From Fimbriimonas sp. (lineage in GTDB: Bacteria; Armatimonadota; Fimbriimonadia; Fimbriimonadales; Fimbriimonadaceae): a stretch of DNA of 64,000 bases. The notes below the pieces were generated by a model, which saw nothing but the letters and a program-made list of their open reading frames with translations, ran no database searches and had not been told where the DNA came from. The translations under genes were made by a program, and so were the position numbers. The DNA lies in the NCBI GenBank assembly GCA_031292555.1, contig JARLGV010000022.1:1-64000 (forward strand), in the 5' to 3' direction. Position 1 is the stretch's first letter; each line of letters starts with the position of its first letter. This document shows, one piece after another, positions 15,852-24,088 of this stretch.

Positions 15852-17057
15852 CTACCGCCGAATCGAATCGACGAGACCAGGCACCACTTCGAAGTTCTCG
15901 GTTCGCTCGTCCCTCATTTTGGCGATCATCAGCGCTTCAGAGTCGCGGTAGGGATCGATCGCCGTAGGCTTGTGGGTTCGGCGGTAAAGCCCCCACTGGC
16001 CCATCGCACCGTCCTTGGCGTCCGTCTTGTAGGTCCACATTGCCCACGACCAGCCGTTACTCTCCATCTCGAGCGTGACGTCGTGCATGGCTTGAGGAGT
16101 GCCTTGAGGCTCGAGATTCCATTCGCCAATATAGAGCGGAGTCTGCCGGTATTCCTGAAGCTCCTTGTCCTTCTTGTCGTGGGACTTCAACGCCGAAAGG
16201 TGATCACCCGGTGTCTTGGCGTCGAAATTGTAGATGTGCAGGGAATAGGCGACGTTGGTCCAGCCCGCCAGATTGGGATGGACGGTCGTGTCGAACCCCT
16301 TGTAGCCGTCTTCAATGAGCAGAACCTTCTTTGGCGCCGTCTTTCGTACGGCGCGATAGACACGGTCATACACAATCGCCAGCATTGCGGGGTTGGGAGC
16401 ACCCATCGGTTCGTTCATCAAGTCGAAAGCAGCCACGTTCGAGTCGCTGCCGAACTCCCGGCCGAGTGTCGCCCACAACTCCTCGAGTTTAGTGATATTC
16501 CCGACGTCGAACCAGAGCCGGTTTCGGTTCGCTTGACCGGTATGATGCTCGCCGCTTTGGCCGCCGGGGGCGCCGTGCAAATCGAGGATCGAGTAGAGCC
16601 CGTGCTTTGCCGCGTCGCCTACCGCCCGGTGGAGTCGGGCCATGCCGCCCGGTTCGGCGAGGAGCGTGTCGAGGAAGGGTATCCGGACGTGGTTGAATCC
16701 ATCCGCTCGAATTCGCGCGAAGTCGGAGTCGGTGATCCAGTTGTCGCGCCAGGCCTCGCGGACCCGGACCATGGCTTCCTGGCCCAGGCGTTTCTCAACC
16801 ACGCCCCAGAGGCTCACATGGTCTTCGATCTTGGGCAGGGCGCTCCTTGCCGGGGGGACGTCCTGCCAGGGGGTCATCCAGATCTCCTCCACCAACCATC
16901 CGCCGAGGTTTACCCCTCGCAGCAGAATCGGTTGCCCATCGGGAGTAACGAGATCGGTTCCATGGACCTGAAGGGCCGGCAAAGGACCGGCAGCACACGA
17001 CGCGAGAGAGGCGAAAGACAACAATGTCGGGATCATCTTGGTATCCCCATTATTCAT
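15852..17057 (-). CDS. GH5 glycoside hydrolase lipoprotein (glucanase-like)
   Basis: 401 residues. The N-terminus MNNGDTKMIPTLLSFASLASC ends in a lipobox (L-A-S-C, Cys at residue 21), so an outer-membrane or periplasmic lipoprotein is likely. The (beta/alpha)8 barrel shows the GH5 signature set: LRGVNLGGWLV near residue 47, HVRIPFLD, DLHGAPGGQSG, the acid/base Glu in DLMNEPMGAPN, and the nucleophile Glu in YIGEWNLEPQG. The GVNLGGWL entry resembles exo-beta-1,3-glucanase/GH5_9-type enzymes more than classic endocellulases. The substrate is inferred only. A second Met (17036) would lose the Lys of the n-region, so 17057 is preferred. It lies 30 bp after the ZipA-like gene on the same strand. 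Confidence 0.85.
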   Translation of the reverse strand: MNNGDTKMIPTLLSFASLASCAAGPLPALQVHGTDLVTPDGQPILLRGVNLGGWLVEEIWMTPWQDVPPARSALPKIEDHVSLWGVVEKRLGQEAMVRVREAWRDNWITDSDFARIRADGFNHVRIPFLDTLLAEPGGMARLHRAVGDAAKHGLYSILDLHGAPGGQSGEHHTGQANRNRLWFDVGNITKLEELWATLGREFGSDSNVAAFDLMNEPMGAPNPAMLAIVYDRVYRAVRKTAPKKVLLIEDGYKGFDTTVHPNLAGWTNVAYSLHIYNFDAKTPGDHLSALKSHDKKDKELQEYRQTPLYIGEWNLEPQGTPQAMHDVTLEMESNGWSWAMWTYKTDAKDGAMGQWGLYRRTHKPTAIDPYRDSEALMIAKMRDERTENFEVVPGLVDSIRR

Positions 17058-17087: not shown

Positions 17088-18014
17088 TCATCTCCCGAAC
17101 AGGGCCATGGTTTCGGAGGAGCCGGTGGTCATGCCTACTTTCGCGAAGAGGCTGATTGCTTCGCGGAGGTTGGCTAGGAGCTGGTTCTTGATGAGGTCGG
17201 ACAGTTCGCGGTTGCTGTCGTCCAAGATCCGTCCGTCGAGTTCTCGGGCGATGTGCTCAGCCGCGTAGAAGGCACCCTCGGCGGCCTGGGTTGGAGCGGG
17301 ACAGAGCGGAACGCTGAAGCCGACGGTCACGCCGACGTGGGTGGCGCCACGTTGGACGTTGGCAAGAGAAAACGCATCGGTCTGGCCAATGGGCGTAACG
17401 CTGAACAGCGGGGAAGGGTGGGAGGGGACCCGCCAGTCGAACGAACCGGTCGGCGAGAAGGAAAGACCCAGTCGGGCGCACTCGACCCACAGGTCTTTCT
17501 CAGCGAACGACGCCTGGCTCGAAAGGACGGAGATCTCGAATCCAATGTCGAGGCTCTCCTGAGTTTGCTTCAGCACGCGCACGTAGGCGTCGATCTCTCG
17601 GGGAACCGGCATCGCCATCGCCCGGCGCTGGATGTAGGGTCCGAACCGCTCCGCAAGTTCGAGCAAGTGCTTGGCGGAGGTGTGGTTAATGGCGCCCTGA
17701 GGGCCGAGCAGGGGCCAAGACATCGCAAGCGAGTCGTACGAACCGTCGATCGCCGGCGTCAGCCGTTGCCACTGAAGGTCGGCGGGCCGCATCGCGAAGA
17801 CCAAGGGGTGTCCGAGCGCCTGGTACCAATCGGGGGCGAGCAACTGGGCCGCCGCTCCGGCGAGAACCGATCGCTGCCCGACAAACTCGATGACGTACTG
17901 AATCTTGTGCAGCGGACCGGCCTTGAGGGGCAGGTCCAACTCGAACGGCTGGAGGGCGATCTCGGGATCAGCTTCGAGAAGCTGTCCGAAAAAGTCCGGA
18001 ACCCCCGGTGTCAA
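17088..18014 (-). CDS. Soluble protein with ZipA C-terminal-like (FtsZ-binding) domain
   Basis: 308 residues, no membrane anchor or signal. The second half reads like the ZipA C-terminal domain: LFSVTPIGQTDAFSLANVQ, then HVGVTVGFSVPLCPAP, AFYAAEHIARELDGRILDDS and NRELSDLIKNQLLANLREAI. This matches the E. coli-type order 'LFSLAN...G-T-hydrophobic strand...A-hA-xLGG-hLDDxR-xLT...hRxxIxxF'. The N-terminal half is unrecognised. ZipA proper has an N-terminal transmembrane helix and Pro/Gln linker, both absent here. A TTG start is required: TTGA (18014-18011) overlaps the era stop, so translation is coupled to Era. The role could be cell division, but binding to FtsZ is inference from remote similarity. 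Confidence 0.6.
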   Translation of the reverse strand: MTPGVPDFFGQLLEADPEIALQPFELDLPLKAGPLHKIQYVIEFVGQRSVLAGAAAQLLAPDWYQALGHPLVFAMRPADLQWQRLTPAIDGSYDSLAMSWPLLGPQGAINHTSAKHLLELAERFGPYIQRRAMAMPVPREIDAYVRVLKQTQESLDIGFEISVLSSQASFAEKDLWVECARLGLSFSPTGSFDWRVPSHPSPLFSVTPIGQTDAFSLANVQRGATHVGVTVGFSVPLCPAPTQAAEGAFYAAEHIARELDGRILDDSNRELSDLIKNQLLANLREAISLFAKVGMTTGSSETMALFGR

Positions 18015-18922
18015 TCGCTGTACTCCAGTTCGTGAAGAATACGTGGGCTCATTCGCCAGTCCTCGCTCACCCTGACGTGAAGCTGGAGGTAGGCGCGTTT
18101 GCCAGTGAATTTCTCGATCTCAAGCCGCGCCTCAGTACCGATCTTTTTGAGGAACTGACCCTGTTTTCCAATCAGAATGGCGCGCTGGCTCACCTTTTCA
18201 ACGAGAATGGATGCCGATATTCTGTTGAGATCTCCCTCTTCTTCCCACTCGTCGATCATCACGGCGACGGCATGAGGAATCTCCTGCCGAGAGGCGATCA
18301 AGATTTGCTCGCGAATTAGTTCGGCGGCCAGAAATCGGCTGCTCTGATCGGTGAATTCGTCATCTGGGTAAAGCGGTGCTTGCTCGGGCAGCTTGCTCAC
18401 GATGATTTCGAGCAATCGATCCACGTTGTAGCCTCTAGTCGCGGTCGTCAGCATGAAATCGTCGTCGGTCATCTGAAGCAATTCCCGATAGGCGTCCAAA
18501 TTGCGCTGGACGTCCTCCGCTTTCAGCAGATCCATCTTGTTCATGCAGAGTACGACAGGGATGGTGCTTTCGCGCTTGAGGAGCTTTGAGACCTCTCGAT
18601 CGAGTTCGCCCGGATGGTGGGAGCCATCTGCTACGAAGACGATCACGTTGGCATCGCCCATCGACATTCGAGCCTGCTCGATCATCGACTTGGCGAGTTG
18701 GGTATGCGGCTCGTGAATGCCGGGCGTGTCGATAAAAGCGATCTGGTACGTTGGCGTGGTTGAGATACCGACGACCCGTCGTCGAGTCGTCTGCGGCTTA
18801 TTGCTGACGATGGAGACCTTCTGCCCAACGATGTAGTTGAGCAGAGTGCTTTTGCCGACGTTCGGCTTGCCGAGAAGGGCGACGTATCCGGATCGGTATG
18901 GAGGATTCGATCGATCGGTCAT
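18011..18922 (-). CDS. era: GTPase Era
   Basis: 303 residues, the standard Era length. A ras-like GTPase needed for 16S rRNA 3'-end maturation and 30S assembly. G1 GKPNVGKST near residue 18, G2 QTTRRR, G3 DTPGIHEP near 65, G4 NKMD near 127, and a C-terminal KH domain with the expected basic helix (AILIGKQGQFLKKIGTEAR) near 240-260 that binds the anti-SD region. Its ATG is 6 bp after the stop of the large TIM-barrel gene, and its stop overlaps the next start by TTGA. It is therefore the third cistron of a tight operon, unlike the common rnc-era or ybeY-dgk-era order. Confidence 0.95.
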   Translation of the reverse strand: MTDRSNPPYRSGYVALLGKPNVGKSTLLNYIVGQKVSIVSNKPQTTRRRVVGISTTPTYQIAFIDTPGIHEPHTQLAKSMIEQARMSMGDANVIVFVADGSHHPGELDREVSKLLKRESTIPVVLCMNKMDLLKAEDVQRNLDAYRELLQMTDDDFMLTTATRGYNVDRLLEIIVSKLPEQAPLYPDDEFTDQSSRFLAAELIREQILIASRQEIPHAVAVMIDEWEEEGDLNRISASILVEKVSQRAILIGKQGQFLKKIGTEARLEIEKFTGKRAYLQLHVRVSEDWRMSPRILHELEYSD

Positions 18923-18928
18923 AACGCG

Positions 18929-21900
18929 CTATTCCCGCTTGCGAAACATCACGTTCATGCCGAGGTCGCCAAGGACGGAGTCGGCGGGGCTGCCCGAGGG
19001 CTCTCGTCTTGGGTTCGACGTCTCCTCGGATCCACCGCGATCGGAACCGCGTCCTCGGCGTCGGCGTCGGCGTCGGCCGATTTTCTCGGTCCCTTCGTCT
19101 TCGACTTCCGGCTCTTCGATGATCTGCTGGGGCCTCAGGAACCAATCTTCCGATGCCTCCTCGCTATCGCCGCCTTCCATCCACTCGTCGAGTTTCATGA
19201 TTGGGACGTCGAAATTCGAGATGTCTCCGAGGATATTCGACTCGCGCGCCGGCAGCTTATCGATGCGTAGCGCCGATGCGGGGTCGGTTTCGAGCATGTG
19301 CTCCAGTTCTTCCTTTGGCCCGACCAAGAAGACGTGCGTCGAACCGTCGGTGGCTGTGAAGCGCAGGTTCGTCGCATCGACTGCCACCCACTCGTCGGTG
19401 AGGAGGTTGAATGCGGAGAACTTGTTGGGCAACGTGATCGTGCGAGGTCCTGCCCCGGAGCAGTGAATCGTGCAGAACGGCGCACGGACGTGAACCACGT
19501 CCTCATGGAAATTCCACACGTGGGCGCCTGCCATTTGCGCTAAGGCACGGATCAGGGCCGCGTTCACCACCGGTTCGCCTAGGAAGACGCTCTTCCAATG
19601 AGCTTCCGCCGGACCCTCGTCGAACTCGCGAACGACGAAGCTCGGGAGTCCCGTCTGGGAGTATTCGCCCAGCACGGTTGCACCTTCCGGAATCGCAAAG
19701 TAACTCGGTTCGAGCTTCGTGCTGCCAATCAGGCTCTTGTCGGGGAACGCCTCGCTCAGCGGGTGACGCCGATTGAGAATCGTCGTGCCCGATTTGCTGT
19801 AGAAGGGTTGCGGCTTGAGCGCGATGCCGGTGATCTCTCTTGCTCGCTCAAGCGAATCGCGTCCGGCGTCGAAGAGGCCGGCGGAGTAGAGCCAGAAGAG
19901 GATCTTGTCGTTGCACTGCAGACGCGATTTGATCGCCGCTCGCAGTTCTGGGCGAACGTCCCACGCGTTGAGGAATAGATACAGTTTGCTGTCCGGAAAC
20001 TTCTCTCGGTGGGCCAGATCGCTCAAGAGGTAGAACGCGGCGCTGACGCCGGCGCGAAGCACCGACTCGCGTACGTTCTGAACAAGCAGTTCGAACGCAT
20101 GAGAGTCGACGAGATAGGCCAGCGCGCGTTCGTCGATGAAGATCGCGACCTCGGGATCGCCAAGCGGGGTCTGCATTCGGTCGACCATTGCCGCCCGGAC
20201 GCGAGAGGCTCTCGCCCAAACCGAATTCGTTTTGAGCCAGCCATTCCCCCACAAGTCCATCCAGGCGACGCCGGTGGAATGGGCCAACGCCACGCCGGCG
20301 CCTCGCCAATGGGCGCTCTCCAATGCCTGAGGCGTCTTGAGCGTCGGGTTGAAGTCGTCCGGCTCGTGGCCGGTGCTGAGCGACGTCTTGAAGTCCTCTT
20401 CGCTGATGTATAGCTTGCTGTTCAGAGCGAAGCTGTCGATCGGGCAAGGAAACGCGGCGCTTCCTCCCGGATCACGTTCGCGATAGCTGGGTGGGCCGGC
20501 GATAAAGTCGATCTCTGGCGTGCGCAGCAACTTACCGAGGGAAAGGTGACCGCTGGATGGGTGAGACCACTCAAACGTGTAGCCGTAGCTTGCGCCGAGC
20601 AAGAAGTAACCGTCGCTGGCCGCCTTGGCAGTGTAGGCCAGGTCTCCGATGCGGTGCACCGTTGCGTCGCTTAGGAACAGGTGGTAGTCGACATAGCGGC
20701 GATGCTTGCGCGACGACCGGATGAACTTCTCGTCATCGGTTCCAGACTGCCGGTACTCGGGAATCTGAATGTTGTCGAACCTTGCGGAGCCGTCGAACCA
20801 CGACGCCCGCAGTGTGACCTCGTCGTTGTTGTAACGTGTACGGGCCCAATCCCGGAACTTCGCCTGAGCTGCCTTCGAGTTGTCGTAGCCAAGGCCCTCC
20901 GAAAAGAACCACTCGCCCCGCTCTAGATGCAGACCCATGATGTTCTCATGAAGGGGCAAGAGCCGCATCTGCTTGACGAAGCGCTCAAGACATGCCTTTG
21001 CGACGTCCCAGAACTCGTCGTCGCAGACGCTCGGTTCGGCGACCGTGCCATCGGCGTGACGATAGCGCGCGTTCATATAGCGATCCTGCCAACCGCGTGG
21101 CGCCTGGAACGTGACCCGGAAAATGACCTGTGCCTCGGGATCGATTTCGACCGCCTTGGCAAGCATGTATGCCGCAAACGCCGTTGTATGGTCCATCTGC
21201 TCCAGGTCGACTTCGAAATCGATCAGGAACGAGTGGAGGTGAATGCCGGCCTCGGCCGCCATTCGTAGTTCGTCGAGCACAGTGTTCGCCCGCCTCTCGT
21301 CGGATGCGCTGCCAAAGAACATCAGTGGGGGATAGACGCGATGATTGCGCACGAGCGTAGGAGTGCCGTCGCGCAAGACCACCTGAGGCGCGTTATCCGG
21401 GATTTCGATTGCCGGTTTCACTGGAGGCTTCGGCGCCGCCGGGCCACGGAACGTCGGTCTCGGCAGATCGGCCTCGGCTACCGGTTTGACCGGCTCAGTA
21501 GCTGTCGTCGTTTCGGGTCGCGGTGTTTCGGCCTCGGCCGGTTTGCGCGGTTTTCGACTCCGATTGTTGCGTCGTTCTGGCTGCGGTGCGCGGTCGCCTT
21601 TCTCCGCGTCTGTGGCAGCGGTAGCCGTCTCTTCTTTGGCTGCATCGACCAGCGCCGGCGCCGGCGCCGGCACGGGAGCGGACGATCTTCCGGTGGACTG
21701 TCTCTGCCTTGGTCGCCAATTTGGAATCGGCAAGTCTTCGTCACCCAACAGAAGGTGATCGTCGACTGAGAACACGGGAACATTTACAGGCGTAAAAGAG
21801 GAAGCCGCGGCTGAAGCCGGCGCTGACTTCTTGCCCGATCGGCTCGAACGACCTTTCTTGGCTTCGGCAGGAGCCTTGACAGCCACGACCTCAACGACTG

Positions 21901-22285
21901 GCTCTTCTACGGCGGCGACTGGAATCGCGACCTTCTCAGCCGGCTTCCGCCTTCGGCTGCTCTTCTTGGGTTGGGCATTCTCTGCGCTGGTTGCATCTGG
22001 CATCTCCGGCTCAACAACAACGACGGGCGCCGTCGGAGTCGGTTCGGACGTGGCCTTCTTATGGTGAGAACGCGCTGTCTTTTTGACAGTTTCTTTAGGC
22101 GCAGTCGCAATGGCCACCGGCGCTTCCTCGATGGATAGCGCGATTTCGGGCGCAGCCTGGACCTTTGCGGTTGCGGGCTGTGCTCGTTTCGTTCGTTTGG
22201 GTGATTTTTGTGGGGCGGCGGCTTCGGTTGGCGGGGTCGGAGTTTCGGTTAAATCGGTGTTTGTGGCTAGCTTCTTTCGGGGCAT
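18929..22285 (-). CDS. Large glycosidase-like TIM-barrel protein with basic disordered tails, era operon
   Basis: 1118 residues from MPRKKLAT (22285); a 10-residue extension to 22315 is possible. Residues 1 to about 300 are low-complexity Ala/Pro/Lys/Thr/Glu sequence with several basic clusters (SSRRRKPAEK, RRNNRSRKPRKP). From about 315 a beta/alpha fold starts, YPPLMFFGSASDERRANTVL and HLHSFLIDFEVD, with MGLHLERGEWFF near 450, resembling GH42/GH35-type beta-galactosidase barrels, followed by beta-rich regions to about 1040. The tail carries GRRRRRRRGRGSD, an RNase E/G- or RGG-like basic patch. No signal peptide, so cytoplasmic. The arginine tail and the neighbour era suggest contact with RNA or the ribosome rather than a secreted glycosidase. 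That is inference; catalytic activity is unproven. Confidence 0.6.
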   Translation of the reverse strand: MPRKKLATNTDLTETPTPPTEAAAPQKSPKRTKRAQPATAKVQAAPEIALSIEEAPVAIATAPKETVKKTARSHHKKATSEPTPTAPVVVVEPEMPDATSAENAQPKKSSRRRKPAEKVAIPVAAVEEPVVEVVAVKAPAEAKKGRSSRSGKKSAPASAAASSFTPVNVPVFSVDDHLLLGDEDLPIPNWRPRQRQSTGRSSAPVPAPAPALVDAAKEETATAATDAEKGDRAPQPERRNNRSRKPRKPAEAETPRPETTTATEPVKPVAEADLPRPTFRGPAAPKPPVKPAIEIPDNAPQVVLRDGTPTLVRNHRVYPPLMFFGSASDERRANTVLDELRMAAEAGIHLHSFLIDFEVDLEQMDHTTAFAAYMLAKAVEIDPEAQVIFRVTFQAPRGWQDRYMNARYRHADGTVAEPSVCDDEFWDVAKACLERFVKQMRLLPLHENIMGLHLERGEWFFSEGLGYDNSKAAQAKFRDWARTRYNNDEVTLRASWFDGSARFDNIQIPEYRQSGTDDEKFIRSSRKHRRYVDYHLFLSDATVHRIGDLAYTAKAASDGYFLLGASYGYTFEWSHPSSGHLSLGKLLRTPEIDFIAGPPSYRERDPGGSAAFPCPIDSFALNSKLYISEEDFKTSLSTGHEPDDFNPTLKTPQALESAHWRGAGVALAHSTGVAWMDLWGNGWLKTNSVWARASRVRAAMVDRMQTPLGDPEVAIFIDERALAYLVDSHAFELLVQNVRESVLRAGVSAAFYLLSDLAHREKFPDSKLYLFLNAWDVRPELRAAIKSRLQCNDKILFWLYSAGLFDAGRDSLERAREITGIALKPQPFYSKSGTTILNRRHPLSEAFPDKSLIGSTKLEPSYFAIPEGATVLGEYSQTGLPSFVVREFDEGPAEAHWKSVFLGEPVVNAALIRALAQMAGAHVWNFHEDVVHVRAPFCTIHCSGAGPRTITLPNKFSAFNLLTDEWVAVDATNLRFTATDGSTHVFLVGPKEELEHMLETDPASALRIDKLPARESNILGDISNFDVPIMKLDEWMEGGDSEEASEDWFLRPQQIIEEPEVEDEGTEKIGRRRRRRRGRGSDRGGSEETSNPRREPSGSPADSVLGDLGMNVMFRKRE

Positions 22286-22587
22286 GGCGTTTGTAAATTG
22301 GTGGACTCGGCCCATTGCGAACCGTTGAAGCTGATCTGGACGAGTTTGTCGGCAGACAGCGTTACGGCGCTAGGCGTGCGTGCGGATTGATGCGCTGCAC
22401 AAGTTTGGACGAGGATATCGTCGGTTTCGCAGCGAGATGGAAAGGGCTCAATAAGACGTTTGCTGAGGGATCCGTCGTGAGCGGTTTTGCCGCTGCTTCT
22501 TCGAGACGTAGTGGCGCTGTCCCCGAGCATCCTGTTCGCGTGGAACGGAGCTGTTTTGGTTGGCGACAGCAAAAGCCCCTCAGGCAT
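22267..22587 (-). CDS. Possible small protein at the head of the era operon
   Basis: 106 codons, MPEGLLLSPTKTAPF to a stop at 22267, overlapping the start of the large TIM-barrel gene by 19 bp in another frame. The support is positional: TATACT at 22600-22595 stands exactly 7 nt before the ATG, the same spacing as several firm genes here. Composition is Ser/Thr rich with three Cys and no recognised domain. If it is not translated, the stretch is a 300-nt 5' leader of the era operon. An ORF on the plus strand over the same bases has no comparable support. Confidence 0.35.
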   Translation of the reverse strand: MPEGLLLSPTKTAPFHANRMLGDSATTSRRSSGKTAHDGSLSKRLIEPFPSRCETDDILVQTCAAHQSARTPSAVTLSADKLVQISFNGSQWAESTNLQTPCPERS

Positions 22588-23179: not shown

Positions 23180-24088
23180 ATGAAGCACGTCGTCTCGATC
23201 AGTCTAGGCACCAGCAAGCGCGATAAGCGCGATGAAGTCGATATCTTGGGTGAGACGTTTCTTTTGGAACGGATCGGCACCGATGGAGACATGAAGAAGT
23301 TTGGTCAGATGTTCACTGATCTGGACGGAAAAGTCGATGCGATCGGCGTCGGCGGGGCCGACATCAACGTCGTCATCGAGGACAAGAAGTATGCGTTTCG
23401 CGAGATACTGAACCTCATCAAGGGCGCTACCAAGACGCCGGTGGTGGACGGCGGTGGCCTCAAGCACACGCTTGAGCGCAACACGATTCGCACCCTTCAG
23501 CGTGACGGAACGGTGGACTTCAAGAAGGAGAAAGTGCTTCTCGTCTCGGCAGTCGACCGATTCGGCATGGCCCAGGCGTTGGTTGAGGCGGGTTCGGACG
23601 TGATCTTCGGCGACTTTCTCTTTGGCTTGGGCATCCCGATCAAGCTGACCAAGTACAGCCAGGTCAAGACGTTCGGGAGTCTCCTTTTGCCGATCGCCAC
23701 GAAACTTCCATTCAAGTGGTTCTATCCGACCGGCGAAAAGCAGGAACAGCGGACGCCGAAGTATCCCAAGATCTTCGCTGAATGCACGGTCGTCTGCGGA
23801 GACTGGCATTACATTAGGCGCTATATGCCGGAGGACATGGCGGGGAAGACGGTCATCACCCAAACGCTGCGTAAGGCCGATTTGGACTTACTCAAACAAT
23901 TCAACACGCGCCGTGCGATTACAACTACGCCGGTGATCGGGGGAGAGACGTTCGCCACGAACGTGATGGAAGGCGTGATCGTCGCTCTACTGGGTAAGAA
24001 ACCGTCCGAGATCAGTGAGCAGGATTACTTGGATACCTTGGCTCGTTTGGGCTGGAAGCCCAATGTGATCGAGATTGCCGGCGTCTGA
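23180..24088 (+). CDS. Protein of the family annotated as 'quinate 5-dehydrogenase'
   Basis: 302 residues. Opens with MKHVVSISLGTSKRDKR, then GETFLLERIGTDGDMKKF, DAIGVGGADIN, VVDGGGLKHTLER and SAVDRFGMAQAL. This is the pattern of a conserved family in Deinococcus, Chloroflexi and Armatimonadota that databases label quinate 5-dehydrogenase. I know of no firm experimental basis for that label, and the chain does not show a classic Rossmann GxGxxG at its N-terminus. It is followed 123 bp later by an acyl-ACP-reductase-like gene on the same strand, and the pair may act together. TACAAT at 23141-23146 is a candidate -10 with a roughly 30-nt leader. Confidence 0.65.
   Translation: MKHVVSISLGTSKRDKRDEVDILGETFLLERIGTDGDMKKFGQMFTDLDGKVDAIGVGGADINVVIEDKKYAFREILNLIKGATKTPVVDGGGLKHTLERNTIRTLQRDGTVDFKKEKVLLVSAVDRFGMAQALVEAGSDVIFGDFLFGLGIPIKLTKYSQVKTFGSLLLPIATKLPFKWFYPTGEKQEQRTPKYPKIFAECTVVCGDWHYIRRYMPEDMAGKTVITQTLRKADLDLLKQFNTRRAITTTPVIGGETFATNVMEGVIVALLGKKPSEISEQDYLDTLARLGWKPNVIEIAGV

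Follow-up and report, generated by a model that had tools for sequence, protein, structure and literature searches.

The stretch of Fimbriimonas sp. DNA analysed here (64,000 nucleotides, in the following called the window) carries on its minus strand, at 18929..22285, a single open reading frame for a protein of 1118 residues. It starts with MPRKKLATNTD at 22285 (residue 1); a second ATG is present upstream, at 22315, but the start at 22285 is favoured because many orthologues open with MPRRKK, MARRKK or MPRKKK. On the same strand, the protein is laid out as a basic, Ala/Pro/Lys/Arg-rich head (residues 1-292, 21410..22285), whose character is kept and whose sequence is poorly conserved, a GH42-fold core (residues 293-1005, 19271..21409) and a C-terminal tail beginning at about residue 1006 (residues 1006-1118, 18932..19270), as judged by composition and orthologue comparison. 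In the core, a (beta/alpha)8 barrel is followed by further GH42-type domains according to the model and the fold matches. The stop codon is separated by 6 bp from the ATG of era (18011..18922, minus strand; NCBIfam 342.7 bits), and era overlaps by 4 bp the gene of a tandem ZipA_C-fold protein (17088..18014, minus strand). Farther downstream, at 15852-17057 on the minus strand, lies a gene for a protein of the GH5 cellulase family whose start resembles a signal peptide. On the plus strand, at 23180-24088, lies the gene of a 302-residue protein without a Pfam match, which in several close relatives adjoins a RidA-family gene and the gene next to it. The layout given by the original prediction, namely a basic head of about 300 residues, a poly-arginine tail with GRRRRRRRGRG, a position 6 bp upstream of era and no signal peptide, was confirmed: the low-complexity head measures about 290 residues, and no hydrophobic N-terminal signal is visible in the 1118-residue protein, as expected for a cytoplasmic location.

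The kinship to glycoside hydrolases was assessed with an AF2 model of the core, built from 77 orthologues (pLDDT 93.0, pTM 0.93). Foldseek returned GH42 beta-galactosidases and a related glucosyltransferase as top matches, with E-values down to 4e-24, and GH164 next. VIA-align gave the highest Z to GH35 and other barrels over about 385 residues, and aligned GH42 enzymes over about 600 of the 713 core residues (Z about 23, rmsd 3.4-3.8). Model and both searches support the GH42/GH35-like barrel that had been proposed from the sequence. With GH42 beta-galactosidases (e.g. PDB 3tts, 4uzs, 5xb7 and 1kwg) the protein has in common the whole-length architecture, as seen in the AF2 model and the fold alignments, and the FreWl..rY segment past strand 4. 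However, identity to these enzymes is just 10-14%, the Pfam PF02449 (GH42) score of the 1118-residue protein (13.8 bits) stays below the gathering cut-off of 21, two long arms are added, and some members are without the catalytic pair. The GH164 beta-mannosidase (6t5o, 6t75) and the Ignavibacterium beta-1,2-glucosyltransferase (7vkz) share the overall fold in full-length matches at about 9-12% identity, and the basic arms have no counterpart in these structures. Searches of NCBIfam and of PDB sequences with the single 1118-residue protein gave no match, and neither Pfam nor the fold search recognised an additional nucleic-acid-binding domain in the core. The protein is a member of an undescribed GH42-like family with the clan GH-A fold; our literature search found no paper on this protein.

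Enzymes of clan GH-A carry the acid/base Glu after barrel strand 4 and the nucleophile Glu at strand 7, and the acid/base is habitually preceded directly by Asn. By alignment and model, the corresponding places, judged from strand positions, are taken by E458 (20912..20914, minus strand), just past predicted strand 4, and E629 (20399..20401, minus strand), at the end of predicted strand 7. A comparison with the GH42 active site, as the original prediction had suggested, thus found both glutamates in place, but not the Asn: residue 457 is Gly, unlike in GH42, and paralogues read GEW or EEW/AEW. E458 is kept in 94 of 105 orthologues and E629 in 95 of 105, and both are present in all 20 paralogues compared. 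The pair is intact in 92/105 orthologues (about 88%), the window protein among them, so most lineages probably have a use for catalysis; the window protein is predicted to be, with fair probability, a retaining glycosidase or transglycosidase acting on its ligand. In the pocket region, W399, W459, D533, R604, K624, D631, D677 and W683 are invariant in all orthologues aligned there.

One or both glutamates are gone in 13 of the 105 orthologues, every one of them in family f1 (families bear the anonymous codes f1-f44). On a tree of 99 core sequences, calculated by a quick method with the two Glu columns left out, the pair changed at least four times, on well-supported branches. Where dS was unsaturated, dN/dS in the pair-less lineages was 0.007-0.084, similar to that of intact pairs, although the values are rough because dS is high. 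The pair-less orthologues retain the arms and the C-terminal motif. Hence, purifying selection persists after loss of the predicted catalytic pair, and catalysis seems to be dispensable in some lineages.

The arms are conserved in character. Lys and Arg make up about 16% of the head, Ala and Pro about 33%. The head is basic in patches, and abundant Glu keeps its net charge at only about +12; the tail has a poly-Arg core, but over its full length its net charge is negative. At least six K/R in 12 residues occur in 103 of 105 orthologue heads (core median 5), and at least seven in 93 of 104 orthologue tails. In the window protein, GRRRRRRRGRG occupies 19046-19078, with its seven consecutive Arg at 19055..19075 (minus strand). 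Among 33 orthologues from beyond the own order, 22 have a tail of the type R4 plus GG[RK], as in RRRRRRGGRGRGRR. Only two of the 47 greedy open reading frames in the window have at least seven K/R in 12 residues near the C-terminus, the GH42-like gene and a probably spurious frame that overlaps the ZipA-like gene in antisense. The Arg runs of the orthologues mix CGC, CGA, CGG, CGT, AGA and AGG codons, and therefore the tails are kept at the protein level; an origin of poly-Arg by DNA repeat expansion is ruled out by these mixed codons in relatives, although the run of the window copy is itself a CGC-CGA repeat. From composition and poor alignment, the arms are expected to be disordered.

In these respects the arms resemble the non-catalytic tails of RNase E, which are likewise of disordered type, basic, partly Arg-rich and equipped with short docking-type motifs. 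They differ in that the carrier domain is a glycosidase fold and not a nuclease, and that the docking partner is putative. RNase E/G in the readable genomes is without a C-terminal basic tail; in family f1 (L329, L330, L332) it has a basic N-terminal head instead.

The gene is single and nearly universal among close relatives. An orthologue was detected in 59 of 61 genomes (the own one and 60 relatives) and in 52 of 52 good ones, with one gene per genome; a second place in G040 resembles the remaining part of a gene divided over two contigs. In a phylum sample, about 90 of 201 Armatimonadota genomes contain an orthologue scoring above 330 bits, a count taken from the table, and below a gap the next matches start at about 260 bits and are mostly paralogues. 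The orthologue is thus widespread, yet not universal, in Armatimonadota. Three gene-bearing loci (L077, L098 and L099) were missed by tblastn and all recovered by ORF-based HMMER searches; the scan of all genomes used patterns taken from the query and reaches close relatives only. A plasmid collection yielded no relative. The contig JADZEW010000005.1 (L038), titled Methanoregulaceae archaeon, carries the Armatimonadota gene beside era and is apparently mis-binned or mislabelled. The GH42-like paralogues of Armatimonadota, about 24-33% identical, share both predicted glutamates and the shared invariants. They differ in being often present in several copies per genome and in having no poly-Arg tail (0 of 20 sampled), and several of these 20 have signal-peptide-like starts. 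What is conserved is the combination of barrel and arms, and in many Armatimonadota this fold with basic arms at both ends has been kept over long evolutionary time.

The linkage to era is strong, yet narrower than the range of the tails. Among 65 loci having era, it lies downstream on the same strand in 64, with a median gap of 3 bp, as counted by an ORF-based method in which some loci represent one genome from two collections. In the one remaining locus (L012), which lies on a short contig, era points the other way. No recognisable era was found in the fetched stretch of any of 36 loci from f2, f4 and other families, nor was another conserved neighbour found in these lineages with a simple ORF caller that may miss small genes. 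The coupling is real but limited to the three related families f1, f3 and f5, where the gene order anticipated upstream of era is indeed conserved. The ribosome-assembly operon proposed originally is confined to these three families, in which the coupling is tight. Another family of the own order and further families of the phylum have tailed orthologues with no era nearby, so the tails cannot be accounted for by era.

Within the own order, both arms also contain short aromatic-Arg motifs. The final residues of the protein form a conserved peptide, MNVMFRKRE in the window (18932..18958, minus strand), and the pattern [VILMF]-x-[FW]-R is found there in 50 of 51 orthologues of f1, in 12 of 12 of f2 and in most others of the own order. 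In the head, motif searches revealed the docking-type motif LPIPNWR (21713..21733, minus strand) in the context DEDLPIPNWRPRQ, and a second motif, LPRPTFR (21446..21466, minus strand), was read from the sequence. Across the f1 heads, [VILMP]-x-[FW]-R occurs 98 times, often as DLPIPxWRPR, compared with 7.8 times in shuffled heads; as the shuffled controls ignore the kinship of the genomes, such counts establish the motif as genuine and maintained but say nothing on the number of its origins. Elsewhere in the genomes searched, the C-terminal pattern has few matches, mostly tiny or implausible frames. Other proteins with the C-terminal peptide or LPxPxWR were considered and rejected, being mostly short or out-of-context frames.

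Our preferred reading of this computational evidence, which we hold tentatively, is that the protein derives from GH42, is tethered within the cytoplasm and has a conserved function that does not depend on catalysis in every lineage. It probably serves above all as an anchor or scaffold and not for digesting polysaccharide, because several lineages lost the predicted catalytic residues under strong selection. The role outside polysaccharide degradation that had been suggested is thereby supported, and the window protein, with both glutamates intact, may still be an active enzyme. The barrel would bind a cytosolic sugar-containing ligand, on which the protein could probably act as retaining glycosidase or transglycosidase in lineages with E458 and E629 intact, while pair-less lineages would keep the binding and scaffolding part only. 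Through its basic arms the protein may be fixed to an anionic polymer, for which RNA or an RNA-protein assembly is the likeliest candidate, and members of the own order may in addition attach to a protein partner by means of the recurring aromatic-Arg motifs and the conserved peptide at the C-terminus. In the three families with era next to the gene, the coupling would adjust production of the protein to that of a ribosome-assembly factor. RNA appears to be the most economical anionic partner owing to the poly-Arg/RGG-like tails and the era coupling, and we also count in favour of tethering that RNase E/G of the readable genomes has no C-terminal basic tail. Against it count the lack of era linkage in f2, f4 and elsewhere, and the ability of polybasic segments to bind DNA, polyphosphate or acidic membranes as well.

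Two other readings appear unlikely to us. In one, the protein would be a cytoplasmic hub whose basic, multivalent arms, together with aromatic-Arg docking peptides, tie a glycosidase-fold protein to an RNA-protein or division complex, with Era-coupled translation and a sugar pocket that serves as a sensor or, in pair-less lineages, has lost catalysis. In the other, it would be an ordinary cytosolic glycosidase, acting for example on imported oligosaccharides or a storage glycan, with tails that only aid solubility or weak self-association. The GH42 fold across all domains of the core, the pair intact in most orthologues including the window copy and the pocket-region invariants agree with such an enzyme. 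Against it, the tails have been retained in many families and are written in mixed codons, the pair changed repeatedly under purifying selection, and the gene occurs once per genome in nearly all members of the order, which would not be expected of a dispensable gene for sugar use.

That the arms bind another anionic partner, such as nucleoid DNA, polyphosphate or the inner membrane face, is somewhat more doubtful still. The Ala/Pro/Lys/Arg composition of the head is that of generic polyanion-binding tails and the core is without a recognised extra nucleic-acid-binding domain; only the era coupling and the RGG-like tails lean, weakly, to RNA, and no other result discriminates.

A link to the divisome is improbable. 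Here, the head motifs (D-L-P-I-P-x-W-R) would mimic the FtsZ C-terminal peptide, and a receptor of FtsZ tails, for instance the ZipA-fold protein, would bind them. FtsZ tails in the examined genomes read DLDIPAFIREHR and DLDIPTFLRRQ; families f1, f3 and f5 have two FtsZ proteins, with tails DLDIPAFIREHR and DLDIPTFLRRQK, and f2 and f4 a single one (loci G000:C53:6637-7596 (L191), G000:C93:28923-29867 (L230) and relatives). Common to these peptides and the head motifs is an acidic-L-[DP]-[IV]-P-x-[FW] core followed by Arg, and the relaxed pattern [DE].{0,2}L[DP][IVLM]P.[FW] is found 17 times, distributed over 16 of 51 heads, compared with 0.02 by shuffling. The ZipA-fold protein, encoded two genes downstream of the GH42-like gene, has a Pfam ZipA_C match, about 308 residues, a soluble-looking sequence and two tandem ZipA_C-like lobes (model pLDDT 92.8), and its sole significant PDB fold matches are to ZipA (TM to target up to 0.84); such a tandem protein occurs here outside Gammaproteobacteria. 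However, the head motifs are internal and their aromatic residue is followed directly by Arg, with no I/L in between, the strict form D[IVL]PxF[IL]R or [DE]-[IVL]-P-x-F-[IL]-R was absent from all 43 heads searched, and the C-terminal copy has no Pro. Moreover, tails occur in families without any of these features. The ZipA-like protein was detected in 19 of 61 genomes, with a further marginal hit; so patchy a presence rules it out as an obligatory partner, and its gene does not always adjoin era, lying apart from it in f5.

An RNA-degradosome scaffold, whose poly-Arg and aromatic-Arg segments would dock PNPase as the nonapeptide RRRRRRSSA of cyanobacterial RNase E and the GWW motif of Caulobacter RNase E do (PMC12489471), is the least probable reading: the missing C-terminal basic tail of RNase E/G in the readable genomes would suit it, but the likeness is short and low-complexity only and conserved linkage to RNA-decay genes was not seen.

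The usual view of glycoside hydrolases is that of enzymes for processing food. Here, a cytoplasmic protein of this fold is encoded by one gene per genome, is nearly universal in its order, has conserved polybasic arms, is tightly coupled to a ribosome-assembly GTPase of essential type and has repeatedly lost its predicted catalytic pair while purifying selection went on. This combination suggests a housekeeping role in Armatimonadota, a phylum with few cultured species, and annotation by fold alone would miss such a role. Since orthologues with and without the pair occur naturally, the question of catalysis versus tethering is directly testable.
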